NCBI GenBank assembly: GCA_016927595.1
Contig: JAFGMI010000013.1
Span: forward strand, 1-64,000
DNA length: 64,000 nt
Direction of reading: 5' to 3'
Origin: Melioribacteraceae bacterium
GTDB taxonomy: Bacteria > Bacteroidota > Ignavibacteria > Ignavibacteriales > Melioribacteraceae
Below the pieces are notes generated by a model. It saw nothing but the letters and a program-made list of their open reading frames with translations, made no database searches and was not told the DNA's origin. The position numbers and the translations under genes were made by a program. Positions 8,159-17,418 of the stretch are shown here, one piece after another. Position 1 is the first letter of the stretch. Each line of letters starts with the position of its first letter.

Positions 8159-10123
8159 ATGAAAATAAAAATTATTCTGTTATCGCTTCTTTTTGCTGCA
8201 ACAACAATAAACGCGCAAAAAAAATACCTGATTTATTTCAAAGACAAAGGTCCCGTTTCATTGTCAAAATCTTCCCGTTTATATTCGGATATTATTAATA
8301 ATCTCTCAGGAGAAGCTATCGAGAGAAGAAAAAAAGTGATGGGGAATGATTTTATAGATCATAAAGATATACCTGTCGGTAAAGACTACATTGATAAACT
8401 CAGATACACTGGTGCTGAGATAGTATGGGAGTTAAAATGGTTGAATGCCGTTTCAGCATATATTGAGAATGATAAACTGGAAACGGTTAAAAAACTTCCT
8501 TTTGTTTCGGAAATTAAATCGGTAGGAATATTTAAACAAAAGCCGGTAATATTTAATGATTTCGACCCTGAGAAAACAAATAAACTTCAATCGGTGGAGA
8601 ATCAAAATTACGGAGCGTCATTAACACAGATGGAATTATCCGATGTACCTTTACTCCACAACCATAACATTAATGGTAACGGAGTTACAATTGCTGTGCT
8701 GGACGCAGGATTCAGATTCAATAACCATAATGCCTTAAATAATATTGAAATAATTGCTACACGTGATTTCGTGTACGGTGACGATGATGTAAGCAATGAA
8801 AACGATGTTTCCCACGGTACGAGTGTAATGAGTTTAATAGCGGGATACGAAGAGGGACAATTAATAAGTCCGGCCTTTAATGCCAGCCTTATTCTTGCCA
8901 AAACGGAGAATATAAATGTTGAAGTTAATCTTGAAGAGGACAATTTTGCTGCAGCCGTTGAGTGGGTTGAGGCGCTGGGTGCGGATATTATAACAAGCTC
9001 TCTGGGATACAGCGAGTTCGATCCGGGACAGCGATCATACACCTATGAAGAAATGGATGGCGAAACTACAATAGTAACCAAAGCCATGGAAACAGCCTTC
9101 TCCCGGGGAGTCGTAACTATTACGTCGGCGGGAAATGAAGGAAACGATCCCTGGAGATATATAACCGCACCGGGCGATGGAGAAAATGTGATTACTGTCG
9201 GTGCTGTAAACGGATTAAACGTGCTGACTTCCTTCAGCTCAAGAGGTCCGACTTCCGATGGCAGAATAAAACCCGAAGTACTTGCACAGGGTACAAACTG
9301 TTATGCAGCGGTATCCTCTAATGCAGCTTATAATTTTGTTCAGGGGACATCATTTTCCGCACCTATAGTCGCGGGTATAACTGCCCAGCTGATGTCAGTT
9401 TATCCTCACCTTAATAACAAGCAAGTCCGCGAAATAATAATCAGATCCGGAGATAACTATTCGGATCCTGATAATGACAGGGGATACGGTTTGTTGTCTG
9501 CAAAGCGGGCTGTTGAATATCCCAATATTAAAGCAGACGGTGATCGGTATATAATTAATAAAATATTTCTTCCTGCAGAAGATGTAGATCCTGCTTCAGT
9601 GAAAATAATAATTGATGACGGAACGGATACACTTATAGATAACCTTATGAGTTATGATAATGACTTGAAATATAATTATGTTCTTAATTCTTATACGACT
9701 GGCATGCACTTAAAATTCAACTTTGAGTATAAAGATCTGTCGGGGAATGAGTATTCCGTTCCCCACGGAATGAAATACACTTATATTTACGGAGAATCAA
9801 CCATAGATATTTCGGATGAAAATGAGATAATTGAAATACCTGAGAACTATAAACTCGAGCAGAATTTCCCGAATCCATTTAATCCGTTCACCACAATTTA
9901 TTTTGAACTTCCGCAGAAAAGCAGGGTGAAAATAATCGTGTATGATGTTTTGGGTCAGTATGTTGCAACTCTCGTTGATGAAGTAAGAAGAGCCGGATAT
10001 TATCACGATGTAAAATGGTACGGTAGAGACGCTGAGGGCAAAACGGTAAGCAGCGGTGCTTATATTTACCAGATGATATCCGATTCATATATTTCAGCAA
10101 AAAAAATGATATATATTAAGTAA
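8159..10123 (+). CDS. subtilisin-like serine peptidase (S8), T9SS-exported
   Basis: A Sec signal peptide (1-20, TINAQ) leads into a propeptide-like region to about residue 150. The S8 domain follows, with catalytic D182 (VLDAGF), H219 (SHGTSV) and S398 (GTSFSAP), and oxyanion-hole N326 (SAGNEG). Residues from about 565 to 654 are a T9SS type A sorting domain with NFPNPFNPFTTIYF, VYDVLGQ and a terminal KKMIYIK. The enzyme should be exported through the T9SS machinery and act at the surface or outside the cell. The O-methyltransferase gene follows after 11 bases. Confidence 0.93.
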   Translation: MKIKIILLSLLFAATTINAQKKYLIYFKDKGPVSLSKSSRLYSDIINNLSGEAIERRKKVMGNDFIDHKDIPVGKDYIDKLRYTGAEIVWELKWLNAVSAYIENDKLETVKKLPFVSEIKSVGIFKQKPVIFNDFDPEKTNKLQSVENQNYGASLTQMELSDVPLLHNHNINGNGVTIAVLDAGFRFNNHNALNNIEIIATRDFVYGDDDVSNENDVSHGTSVMSLIAGYEEGQLISPAFNASLILAKTENINVEVNLEEDNFAAAVEWVEALGADIITSSLGYSEFDPGQRSYTYEEMDGETTIVTKAMETAFSRGVVTITSAGNEGNDPWRYITAPGDGENVITVGAVNGLNVLTSFSSRGPTSDGRIKPEVLAQGTNCYAAVSSNAAYNFVQGTSFSAPIVAGITAQLMSVYPHLNNKQVREIIIRSGDNYSDPDNDRGYGLLSAKRAVEYPNIKADGDRYIINKIFLPAEDVDPASVKIIIDDGTDTLIDNLMSYDNDLKYNYVLNSYTTGMHLKFNFEYKDLSGNEYSVPHGMKYTYIYGESTIDISDENEIIEIPENYKLEQNFPNPFNPFTTIYFELPQKSRVKIIVYDVLGQYVATLVDEVRRAGYYHDVKWYGRDAEGKTVSSGAYIYQMISDSYISAKKMIYIK

Positions 10124-11472: not shown

Positions 11473-12582
11473 TTGTTAATTTTTATTATATTTTTAAACA
11501 AAAAACAAATAATTAAGATTTTGAAGAATATCAAACTCTATTCGCTGTTATTTATTTTGCTTTTAGTTTCTGAGATTAATGCTCAGGTTAAAAGATGGTA
11601 TCAGCTGGAAACTAATGATTATAAAACCACATTTATAGATACTACTACCATTCGTGAAACTGACGGACAACTATCCGTTTGGGTTCTTGATATCTATAAG
11701 GAGCCTGTTGAAATTGAGAATATTGACGGGATGGTTAAACGGGCGAGGACACAATATCTTTTCGATATAAGGCAACTAACTTATTCCGAAATAGGTAATC
11801 TTTATTATGATGACGTGGGGAAAATAATTTCACAGAGTTACACACCTCAGATAGGCGGTAATGCCAGAACATTTTACCAGCCGCTTGGCGGTGATGAAGA
11901 CGCTTCGGCGGTATTTAATAAACTGGTTGAGCTCTTGAATATCGAGGTAAATACGAGTAACAGTCCTGTAAATTACGATCCAGCAATAGCAAGGCGGATA
12001 GAAGAAGCGAATAAAGATGTTGTGGAAAATCTGCAATCCGGATTGTCGGAAACCTTAAAGCAGCAGCAGATTGAATCCTCGGTCGATTCAGCTGATGAAA
12101 GGAATACGGGAGAAAATATAACTGGGGAAATTGATTCTGAAAATCGGATGATCATCGATCACTCAGAAAATTCAGATACTCAGTTGAATGATGAAGCAGA
12201 CATAAAAAGCATTGCAAAAATTATTGATCCGATAACAGGAAATTTTATTGAACTTAAGAACAATGACAGAGGAACAGATAATAACATATCCGAGACCCAG
12301 GCTGAGGATTCCGACGATGTTGAATTAACTTATAATCCGGCAAATGAACGAAATGTAACTAATACAATTTTCACCGACGGCAATTTGTATTGTTTTCAGG
12401 TCTCCTCCTGGAAGAGAATAACAATTGCTGAAAAGGAGGTTGAGAGACTTAAAAGAAGTAAGCATAATGCATTTATAGTGGAAGCCAGACCAAAACATAA
12501 ACAGGGTGTTTGGTATCGGGTAAGAGTAGGATATTTTAATACTTTACAGGAAGCCAAAGATTATCAGAAGAGAGTTAAGTAG
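11473..12582 (+). CDS. secreted SPOR-domain protein
   Basis: A 369-residue exported protein. An N-terminal signal sequence ends at SEINAQ (about residue 38). A first domain (about 39-115) with the pattern WYQLETNDYKTTFIDTTTI resembles surface-adhesin-E-like domains. A low-complexity acidic linker follows, and a C-terminal SPOR domain (about 305-369) has FQVSSWK and WYRVRVGYF. SPOR domains bind denuded septal peptidoglycan, so a role in division or the cell wall is likely. The start is TTG with GGAG 10 bases upstream; a TTG at 11521 would give a more typical signal peptide (22 residues). Confidence 0.82.
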   Translation: MLIFIIFLNKKQIIKILKNIKLYSLLFILLLVSEINAQVKRWYQLETNDYKTTFIDTTTIRETDGQLSVWVLDIYKEPVEIENIDGMVKRARTQYLFDIRQLTYSEIGNLYYDDVGKIISQSYTPQIGGNARTFYQPLGGDEDASAVFNKLVELLNIEVNTSNSPVNYDPAIARRIEEANKDVVENLQSGLSETLKQQQIESSVDSADERNTGENITGEIDSENRMIIDHSENSDTQLNDEADIKSIAKIIDPITGNFIELKNNDRGTDNNISETQAEDSDDVELTYNPANERNVTNTIFTDGNLYCFQVSSWKRITIAEKEVERLKRSKHNAFIVEARPKHKQGVWYRVRVGYFNTLQEAKDYQKRVK

Positions 12583-15313: not shown

Positions 15314-15390
15314 ATTGATCCCTTTTTAAAAATTGACCAAGACTTATGCCGGTCTCAAAAATATTATTAATCCAGACTAATTGTAAATAT

Positions 15391-15428
15391 AGTGTTCGTA
15401 AACGTACACTACAAAACTTTTTCGTACA
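15391..15428. promoter_or_regulatory. candidate enhancer dyad of the NtrC-type regulator
   Basis: Bases 15391-15410 form the imperfect palindrome AGTGT-n-CGT-nn-ACG-n-ACACT. The half-site TCGTACA recurs exactly 20 bases after the ACGTACA half (15402 versus 15422). The inner 12 bases, read on the opposite strand as CGTTTACGAACA, occur identically upstream of the export operon. The site lies between the divergent regulator and four-repeat genes. I found no GG-N10-GC promoter for either gene here. Confidence 0.5.
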
Positions 15429-15506
15429 AAATGCATTGAAAATGATAAAACAAAATCAACGTGTGTGCGTCTAAAACTCAGACTTGGAGATAGAGGTATT
15501 AATTTT

Positions 15507-17222
15507 ATGTTCACGAAATATTCTAATTCGGTTTCATCTAAACTGCTCCTTCTGTTAATGGCATTTGGCAGTGTGATTTATTCACAAAGCGATAACGAAA
15601 TAGTAGTCGGCAGAATCAGCCCGGGAGAAATTGATATGTCTGCATTCGCTCTGACCGCACCGGCTTCGATTAACATTTCCGGTATGGGGGCATCTTACGG
15701 CGAATGGGACGAAGAAACAGCGTTTTACGGATGGATTTTAAATTCTGAAACCAGACAGGTAGTCTGGCATTTAAGAAATATGAATGAGTTCGGTGAAGAT
15801 GAAGGTTTGTTCGAGTTTAGCACGAGTCTGCAGCTGCCAGCCGGGAATTATGAGGTTTATTACAGCGGTTCTGTCCGGAACTACATTCAGGTAAAAGGCT
15901 GGGGCGATTTCTGGAGCAATGTTTTCGGTGAGCATAAATACAAAGCAAGCGATAGAAAAAAACTATTCATGACAATAACCGGTCCGGAAAAAAATTTCAG
16001 CAAGTTAAGCGCAAGGGATCTGGTTGATAAAAAGGTTAAAAATTCGATTGTTTCTATAATCAGGGTCGGTGATTACGAGGACTTTAAATCTTCATTTACA
16101 CTTACTGAGGAAACAAAAATAAGAGTATACTCAATTGGGGAGGGAAGAAAGGGCAGCGTTTACGATTTTGGGTGGATTTATGATGAGAACAATCACGAAC
16201 GCATCTGGACAATGTCTTCATGGCGGAGTGACCATGCCGGCGGAGGACAGAAAAATATTATTGTCGATAAGGAAATATCACTAAAAGCAGGCAGCTACTC
16301 GGTACGTTTTTCTACTGATGATTCACATTCCTTCGACGAGTTCAACGTACTGCCGCCGGACGATCCGCAATTCTGGGGAATAACACTCTGGCTTGTCGAC
16401 AATAAGGATATAAGCAATGTTAAACCTTTTACCGATTCTGAAAGAATAGAGCCTATTGTTGAAATGATACATGTAGGCGACGATGAATTCAGATCTCAGG
16501 GATTCAGTCTTGAGAAAGATATGGATGTGCATGTCTATTCTCTTGGAGAAGGTACCTCAAGTACGATGGTGGATTACGGGTGGATAATTAATGCCGATAC
16601 TAAAGAAACTGTCTGGAAGATGACCGGTAGAAAAACCGGGCATGGAGGCGGAGCCGATAAGAACAGACTATTTGATGATAAAATTTTTCTGAGTAAAGGC
16701 AATTATATAGCTTATTATACAACAGATGATTCGCATAGCTATGACAATTGGAATGCTACACGACCTATAGAATCCGACAGGTGGGGATTAACCATTTGGC
16801 CGACATCGAAAGAAGATGAAAAATATGTTGAACTCTTTGACGAAGATGAATATAAAAACGAAAATGTAATAGCGGAAATCATAAGAGTGAAAGATCACAA
16901 AGAAATTCACAAAAAATTTTCGTTGAGTGAAAATACTAAGGTCAGAATAATCGCAATTGGCGAAGGTGACCCTGACGATATGTACGATTACGGATGGATT
17001 GAAAACGAAAATGGTGGAGTTGTCTGGGATATGACCTTCAGAAAAACAGAACATGCCGGAGGAGCGAAGAAAAACAGAATATTTAATGATACTATCATGC
17101 TCGAAAAAGGAAGTTACTACATTTACTTTGTAACAGATGATTCGCATTCTTATAATGACTGGAACGCTACTCCACCCGATAATCCTGAACTTTACGGTAT
17201 AACACTTTTATTCGAGAGATAA
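15507..17222 (+). CDS. secreted protein of four tandem ~120-residue repeats, unknown family
   Basis: A Sec signal peptide (residues 1-26, ending VIYSQ) precedes one diverged copy (about 29-156) and three clear copies (181-295, 317-432 and 454-569) of one domain. Shared landmarks are an Arg/His-Val-(Gly/Lys)-Asp start, a GEG turn, (D/Y)(F/Y)GWI, W-x-M, a H(A/G)GG..K(N) stretch, TDDSHS(Y/F) and a closing G-I/L-T-L/I. Spacing is about 137 residues. The domain is probably all-beta; acidic TDDSHS loops could bind metal. I do not recognise it. ATG 15507 was chosen over an in-frame GTG at 15465 because it starts the signal peptide and has GGAG and AGAGG upstream. A terminator follows. Confidence 0.85.
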   Translation: MFTKYSNSVSSKLLLLLMAFGSVIYSQSDNEIVVGRISPGEIDMSAFALTAPASINISGMGASYGEWDEETAFYGWILNSETRQVVWHLRNMNEFGEDEGLFEFSTSLQLPAGNYEVYYSGSVRNYIQVKGWGDFWSNVFGEHKYKASDRKKLFMTITGPEKNFSKLSARDLVDKKVKNSIVSIIRVGDYEDFKSSFTLTEETKIRVYSIGEGRKGSVYDFGWIYDENNHERIWTMSSWRSDHAGGGQKNIIVDKEISLKAGSYSVRFSTDDSHSFDEFNVLPPDDPQFWGITLWLVDNKDISNVKPFTDSERIEPIVEMIHVGDDEFRSQGFSLEKDMDVHVYSLGEGTSSTMVDYGWIINADTKETVWKMTGRKTGHGGGADKNRLFDDKIFLSKGNYIAYYTTDDSHSYDNWNATRPIESDRWGLTIWPTSKEDEKYVELFDEDEYKNENVIAEIIRVKDHKEIHKKFSLSENTKVRIIAIGEGDPDDMYDYGWIENENGGVVWDMTFRKTEHAGGAKKNRIFNDTIMLEKGSYYIYFVTDDSHSYNDWNATPPDNPELYGITLLFER

Positions 17223-17250
17223 TATTTATGACGACCTTTAAAGAGTGGAT

Positions 17251-17287
17251 AAAAGCGGAGCTTTGGGCTGGGACTCCGCTTTTTTTT
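17251..17287 (+). terminator. rho-independent terminator
   Basis: AAAAGCGGAG (17251-17260) pairs with CTCCGCTTTT (17274-17283) around a 13-base loop and runs into seven or more T. It ends the four-repeat gene and insulates it from the export operon. Confidence 0.85.
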
Positions 17288-17299
17288 ATTTAAAATTAT

Positions 17300-17335
17300 T
17301 GTCCGTTTACGAACAGAATTCTCCGCTGACGAACA
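17300..17335 (+). promoter_or_regulatory. tandem upstream activator sites for the export operon
   Basis: TGTCCGTTTACGAACA (17300-17315) is a perfect TGTnCGTnnACGnACA dyad. A second copy at 17320-17335 matches 10 of the 12 fixed positions. The centres are 20 bp apart, two helical turns, and lie about 121 and 101 bp before the predicted start of the sigma-54 transcript, the usual place for NtrC-type enhancers. The first copy shares 12 identical bases with the site near the regulator gene. Confidence 0.6.
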
Positions 17336-17403
17336 TACGATTGAGAGAGGGCTAACACTCAGCTTGTTTTGAACGGAATTTGATGAAAATAAAGTTTATT
17401 AAC

Positions 17404-17418
17404 GGCATAAAAATTGCA
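17404..17418 (+). promoter_or_regulatory. sigma-54 (RpoN) promoter of the export operon
   Basis: GGCATAAAAATTGCA has the invariant GG (17404-17405) and GC (17416-17417) separated by exactly 10 bases, with TTGCA at the -12 element. Transcription would start near 17429, 16 bases before the ATG at 17445, leaving room for the AGAAGGT ribosome site. Confidence 0.75.

Follow-up and report, generated by a model that had tools for sequence, protein, structure and literature searches.

A tandem-domain protein of a Melioribacteraceae bacterium and the invariant site of its uncatalogued, predicted jelly-roll family

In a 64,000-nucleotide stretch of a Melioribacteraceae genome (contig JAFGMI010000013.1, positions 1–64,000; hereafter the window), a gene beside a two-component system encodes a repeated domain that none of the libraries we tried could name. 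What is this domain, what might its most strongly conserved part do, and does the adjacent two-component system bear on the answer? From the nucleotide letters and their translations, the original prediction had read the gene as a secreted protein with four tandem copies of an unassignable domain, sharing GWI, W-x-M, a HAGG-like turn and a TDDSHS loop that might bind a ligand or a metal, perhaps in a periplasmic sensor or chaperone.

Four tandem copies and their export signal

The features of the gene are given below, with copy boundaries taken from the structure model.

15507–17222, + strand: open reading frame of the tandem-domain protein (ATG at 15507, stop at 17220–17222, 571 aa)
15507–15584, + strand: signal peptide of ~26 residues, Sec type by eye (from the translation; hydrophobic helix at residues 6–25 in the model)
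15597–15992, + strand: copy 1, degenerate, its fold predicted to be kept and its site motifs absent (HMM, 21 bits; model residues 31–162)
16050–16397, + strand: copy 2, intact (HMM, model, pairwise blastp)
16452–16802, + strand: copy 3, intact (HMM, model, own-genome search, pairwise blastp)
16866–17216, + strand: copy 4, intact and C-terminal (HMM, own-genome search, blastp; pLDDT 97.5 when modelled alone)
17245–17290, + strand: terminator-like hairpin and T-run (RNA fold −18.4 kcal/mol, z −3.6)

A longer form of the frame begins with a GTG at 15465. Orthologues of the protein also have a signal-peptide-like stretch at the N-terminus; together with the start read by eye and the modelled helix, this bears out the proposal that the protein is secreted. 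No type IX sorting tail was seen in it, unlike a secreted subtilisin-like protease encoded at 8159–10123 of the window, which by eye has an apparent one. The terminator-like hairpin and T-run close off the gene upstream of an exporter operon; they are missing from the list produced by our pattern scan, which had a loop limit of 8.

The four tandem copies are real, since they match one another in pairwise blastp and an HMM built from copies 2–4 alone detects copy 1, and both frame and repeats lie where they had been predicted. Identity is 37.5% between copies 2 and 3, 46% between 2 and 4 and 48% between 3 and 4 (E 1e-32 to 6e-39); copy 1 aligns with these three at 25–29% over 76–95 residues (E 5e-7 to 2e-3), and its HMM score, 21 bits in the window, ranges from 7 to 37 bits in orthologues. 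A search of the organism's own genome with copy 3 returned the other three copies and one weak extra place (E 0.14), with no further convincing copy. Copies 2–4 carry all of the motifs that had been ascribed to the whole set (GWI, W-x-M, the GG..KN turn and TDDSHS). That description does not extend to copy 1, which lacks HAGG and TDDSHS and retains only GWI, a W (in WHL) and the L..G-Y strand. The 11 aligned orthologues agree with this: copy 1 has neither GG..KN nor DSH in any of them, and a single one (L038) has a leftover GEG at the corresponding place. By its sequence, copy 1 is genuinely related to copies 2–4 but degenerate.

The view that no family could be assigned was upheld: neither the whole protein nor its single copies matched a Pfam or NCBIfam family above cut-off, no PDB chain matched in sequence searches with a single sequence or a 90-row profile, and no strong match to a characterised family emerged from these searches. 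Scanning 90 members one by one against the libraries gave scattered weak matches only. DUF5013 was hit by 7 of the 90 (best E 7e-4), and DUF4458 and DUF6786 also appeared; all three matches are weak, and none was adopted as the family of the domain. We found no mention of the motif TDDSHS in the open-access literature searched, and open-access work on sensor architecture, Ignavibacteria repeats, bacterial CUBs and combinations of Omp85, bactofilin and toastrack yielded nothing on the tandem-domain family. The domain is a real family outside the libraries tried, with a striking invariant site and a fold of a common kind.

The invariant site, its spread and its reuse

Scanning a single genome per species yielded 441 confirmed stretches. 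The domain was detected in 20 of 58 relatives, in 7 of 61 genomes of its own class, in 66 of 395 genomes of its own phylum and in 39 of 40 genomes of the Calditrichota phylum (the phylum of locus L094). By record title, the best 80 of the 441 stretches come from Melioribacteraceae, Cyclobacteriaceae, other Bacteroidota, Calditrichota and KSB1, and further from Zixibacteria, Gemmatimonadota, Latescibacterota, Krumholzibacteriia and a few others; because they were selected as best matches, they favour close relatives. All of these best 80 of 441 loci have four copies, counting partial copies in the few loci where a contig end cuts copy 1 or copy 4. Other copy numbers occur as well. Among 20 Calditrichota-phylum loci, hand-chosen from 17 of the 40 genomes with long contigs favoured, three encode six-copy versions (L178, L180 and L193; ORFs of 856–888 aa), although four is the usual number in that phylum, and three-copy proteins probably exist, judging by ORFs of ~451–506 aa with three matches in the own-phylum survey.

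Across this spread, six residues (E, D, K, N, D and H) are identical in 253 of 253 copies, namely 79 of 79 copies 2, 79 of 79 copies 3, 79 of 79 copies 4 and 16 of 16 single copies from other proteins. They are E35, D43, K71, N72, D93 and H96 in copy-4 numbering, which correspond to E486, D494, K522, N523, D544 and H547 of the protein.

16962–16964, + strand: copy 4 E486, in the GEG loop (invariant, 253 of 253)
16986–16988, + strand: copy 4 D494, in DYGW (invariant, 253 of 253; 8 residues after the E in 75 of 90)
17070–17075, + strand: copy 4 K522 and N523, in the GG-x-x-KN turn (invariant, 253 of 253)
17136–17147, + strand: copy 4 loop D544-D-S-H547, in TDDSHS (first D and H invariant, 253 of 253)

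In an alignment of 90 of 115 prepared rows, from which near-duplicates had been removed by hand, G34, W56, G68, Y86, N102, P106 and G113 are also invariant, W101 is present in 82 rows and position 112 is W or Y in all 90. The E-to-D spacing differs from 8 in 15 rows; Y or F precedes the first D in 63 of the 90, and T or S precedes the second in 89. D-x-S is present in 81 of the 90 copies, and its S in 8 of the 16 single copies. No cysteine is conserved among the invariant or near-invariant columns. To judge from strand order in the model, all invariant residues except W56 and Y86 would sit at strand ends, at the same end of the sandwich. The suggestion that the acidic, His and Trp loops form a binding site gained in weight, as these loops look like a putative site and include six residues that never vary.

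Single copies of the domain lie in long ORFs (~1190–1510 aa, some cut by contig ends). We sampled 16 of them, from the organism's own family and order only, and their identity to window copy 4 falls as low as 31–41%. The three single-copy sensor ORFs that were scanned contain Reg_prop and Y_Y_Y, with SpoIIE, HisKA/Response_reg/AraC-type or HisKA_3 outputs. The domain is inserted between propeller motifs, starting at residue 515–549 in 11 of 13 listed ORFs and at 193 and 243 in two kinase-type sensors. One single copy forms the C-terminus of a beta-lactamase-family hydrolase. At one locus (L027, 1978–17577), four consecutive long propeller-type sensor genes carry one inserted copy each.

The same site is therefore found in three unrelated contexts, the tandem protein, propeller sensors and a hydrolase tail, which argues that packing inside a single protein is not its purpose. 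The idea of a sensor holds for the domain, because single copies sit within the propeller part of sensor proteins; for the window protein, which shares the domain with some two-component propeller sensors (Reg_prop, Y_Y_Y) but has neither a propeller nor an output domain, it is no more than a candidate reading.

How these copies are related was read from a FastTree phylogeny of the 253 copies (79 each of copies 2, 3 and 4, and 16 singles; two of the best 80 of 441 loci, whose fourth copy is cut, were dropped, leaving 78 and the window). Copies 2 fall largely into one pure clade (74 of 79; support 0.90), and 56 of the 79 copies 3 form another (0.86). A third clade (0.95) holds 78 of the 79 copies 4 and all 16 singles, and nothing else. 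Within it, the singles form a clade of their own (0.95), nested among 38 copies 4 (0.987); the copy 4 nearest to them is from Ignavibacteriales, a placement that is weakly supported (0.60). Since copies group by position, the four-copy plan probably predates the spread over the sampled phyla. The sensor and hydrolase copies, sampled as they were from one family and order, look like exports of copy 4.

Fold and likeness to CUB, PPC and GOLD domains

AlphaFold2 modelled the whole protein with a pLDDT of 84.2 and copy 4 alone with 97.5 (pTM 0.89). The predicted fold is a beta sandwich (jelly roll), which the comparison with known folds that the original prediction had proposed places near CUB, PPC and GOLD, with Z no higher than 8.1. 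The best matches were Kremen (5fwt, Z 8.1, presumably through its CUB), PPC (5sv5, 8.1), collagen-binding domains (7.7), GOLD (7.5) and C1s CUB1-EGF (7.5), and identity across the top 50 was 7–17%. Matches at Z of ~8 may reflect common arrangement only, as unrelated beta-sandwiches reach the same Z. About half of the top 50 (25 by count, some of them presumed CUBs) are CUB rows at Z 6.2–8.1; PPC, GOLD and other sandwiches score alike. The CUB matches titled, or stated in their papers to be, metal-bound include 1nzi (Z 7.5), 5ckn and 3pof (6.9) and 5ckm (6.8). Rows for haemagglutinin, Cry and Clostridium perfringens enterotoxin in the fold searches were likewise taken as common arrangement, and a viral fold library gave weak jelly-roll matches only.

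The calcium-binding subset of CUB (PF00431; C1r/C1s, MASP, neuropilin) is one of the nearest comparisons. Its jelly-roll fold is similar to that predicted here, and CUBs and our domain are both used in tandem as ligand-binding modules, putatively so for the latter. CUBs have conserved cysteine pairs; these find no counterpart in the domain, whose 90-row alignment has no conserved cysteine. The domain also adds to the CUB plan an invariant K-N turn and a long W-N-P-P loop. For C1s CUB1, one study describes Glu45, Asp98 and Ser100 as contacting the ligand lysine and Asp53 as essential for calcium, and reports that mutation of Glu45, Tyr52 or Asp98 alters binding (PMC4222235). The E-(8)-D and [ST]-D-x-S spacing of our domain is like that of this calcium/lysine site (45/53/98/100), a likeness of sequence spacing only, and our invariant K and N fall outside the site as described for C1s.

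Common descent with CUB is unsupported by either sequence comparison, for which PPC served as a control. None of 90 members matched Pfam CUB (PF00431) at E ≤ 0.1, and profile–profile comparison with nine bacterial CUBs gave a probability of 1% (E 0.056) with only the [ST]-D motif in register. Of these CUBs, which come from the same phylum, 8 of 9 carry [ST]-D, and where an E is present (8 rows) the E-to-D spacing is 4. The domain may work like a calcium-binding CUB; by sequence, it fails as a member of that family.

PPC/collagen-binding domains (PF04151 and relatives) have a similar fold (Z 8.1 with 5sv5) and no motif that we could see in common with the domain; 0 of 90 members matched PF04151 at E ≤ 0.1, and profile–profile comparison with 10 PPC rows gave a probability of 0.2%. 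GOLD (p24/TMED) is also similar in fold (Z 7.5; Foldseek E 8e-4), with no sequence link to the domain in library scans, and we know of no comparable invariant site in it.

Neighbouring genes and competing explanations

Conservation of the gene neighbourhood in general was looked for over the best 80 of 441 loci and not found, with no clustered family in more than 10 loci. Among 147 direct neighbours the commonest Pfam family was the toastrack DUF4097, with 7, and receiver domains were present in 5 of the 147 immediate neighbours scanned. In the 20 chosen Calditrichota-phylum loci, an Omp85/DUF5686 barrel gene lies directly upstream in 12 (with a bactofilin-like part in 5 of the 12), a toastrack gene lies directly downstream in 12, and both neighbours are present in 11. 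The three-gene operon of barrel, tandem-domain and toastrack genes is seen in L175, L178, L180–L183, L185, L187, L189, L190 and L192. By eye, 7 of 7 barrel starts and 8 of 8 toastrack starts are signal-peptide-like. A barrel or toastrack gene also occurs in 9 of the best 80 of 441 loci, some on contigs common to the 20-locus set; the association is pronounced in a single phylum.

Toastrack domains have been linked to envelope stress systems and, in the contexts examined in that work, proposed to be intracellular (PMC11237479). The Omp85–toastrack partners are not beside the gene in the window, whose genome has weak, unlinked barrel matches only. A SPOR/Adhesin_E gene is present in the window at 11473–12582, and a relative lies directly upstream of the tandem-domain gene in L046, L053, L054 and L065. 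The cell envelope is the common thread of the recurring neighbours.

We see about an even chance that the protein is a periplasmic, envelope-associated multi-site binder with a cation-assisted pocket that works in a CUB-like manner. It would be an exported, most likely periplasmic, protein of four jelly-roll domains from one uncatalogued family, in which copy 1 would be a degenerate structural copy and copies 2–4 would each have a pocket at one sandwich end, lined by E, D, K, N, D, (S), H and N. By analogy with calcium-binding CUBs, we infer that E, D and D may hold a divalent cation, probably Ca2+, together with a ligand. Three such sites in a row would make a multivalent binder or scaffold holding an envelope polymer or protein, and the propeller sensors would use their single copies to detect a ligand of that kind. 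In that case this small domain, modelled with confidence, could reveal an envelope ligand common to the tandem protein, the propeller sensors and the hydrolase, and would offer the propeller–SpoIIE sensors a candidate input. The domain presents a clear target: its site is unchanged in 253 copies, 39 of the 40 Calditrichota-phylum genomes carry the domain itself, and neither Pfam nor NCBIfam gave a family for it.

A more far-reaching version of this reading is speculative, and we hold it with considerable doubt: bacteria could have an ancient and so far unrecognised equivalent of the calcium-binding CUB system, in which the protein would be a tandem periplasmic adaptor, near-universal in one phylum, with three cation-assisted pockets for a fixed envelope ligand and a last domain copied into SpoIIE and kinase sensors that monitor the same ligand. 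If so, candidates for the ligand would include amine-bearing or anionic groups on a polymer or on the Omp85–toastrack partners.

It is unlikely that the copies instead form an array of carbohydrate-binding modules (CBMs), whose Trp-rich loop end would bind an envelope or environmental glycan in the style of CBM6 or CBM35, with or without Ca2+. The invariant W56, the near-invariant W101 and the aromatic residue at 112 would suit such an array, as would the CBM35 and CBM6 chains among the Foldseek rows (E ~5e-3) and the SPOR-domain gene upstream in four loci. Those chains, however, match weakly (TM ~0.4), no Pfam CBM family passes (AMPK1_CBM in 4 of 90 members, best E 0.018), and an invariant charged cluster is unusual in modules that bind varied sugars.

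A purely structural site, in which Ca2+ or a salt-bridge network stabilises a spacer or a protein–protein sandwich, strikes us as less likely still. Many extracellular beta-sandwiches do use structural Ca2+, but copy 1, which has no such site, is nonetheless predicted to have the same fold, so the site is seemingly not needed for the fold, and it is hard to see why a spacer would have to keep these six residues invariant in 253 copies. That the same cluster is catalytic, and the protein an enzyme, is very improbable: the complete invariance of charged and His residues speaks for it, yet library and PDB sequence searches gave no enzyme-family match, the closest folds are mostly binding domains, and three sites in a row together with single copies in sensor propellers fit binding better.

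The two-component system that had first been taken as a clue to function found no support in the comparison of neighbourhoods. In the window, the gene is flanked on one side by a divergent kinase (HATPase_c) and a sigma-54 regulator (Response_reg, Sigma54_activat, HTH_8) and on the other by an HlyD-like/ABC exporter set, named by eye. Of the best 80 of 441 loci, only the same-genus L045 contains a relative of the kinase or of the HlyD-like gene, and a relative of the regulator adjoins the gene only in L045 (74%) and L117 (36%), at E 1e-20. The gene has no conserved partner in the adjacent two-component system; the Omp85 barrel and toastrack (in the Calditrichota phylum) and SPOR (in four loci) recur. 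An accessory sensor of the adjacent histidine kinase or sigma-54 regulator, as the original prediction had it, is the least likely of these readings: the divergent neighbours in the window and in L045 and a palindrome-like element in both intergenic regions favour it, but only 1 of the best 80 of 441 loci retains the pair, the kinase has only HATPase_c at E ≤ 0.001 and may lack a sensor part, though nothing identifies such a part with the tandem protein, and the terminator-like hairpin stands between the gene and the exporter operon.

Sigma-54-like −24/−12 sequences lie at 17403–17418 (+ strand) before the HlyD-like gene, with one mismatch, and at 15336–15351 (− strand) before the regulator gene, with two; over the whole window the pattern occurs 16 times against 25.6 expected, which is not above chance. 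The palindrome-like element, GTGTTCGTAAACG, is found at 15392–15404 (+ strand) and, with one mismatch, at 17304–17316 (− strand), only in the two intergenic regions flanking the gene; at least two matches also arose in 27 of 100 shuffled versions of the window. It may be a binding site of the adjacent sigma-54 regulator, and a close form of it stands at the same place before the gene in L045.
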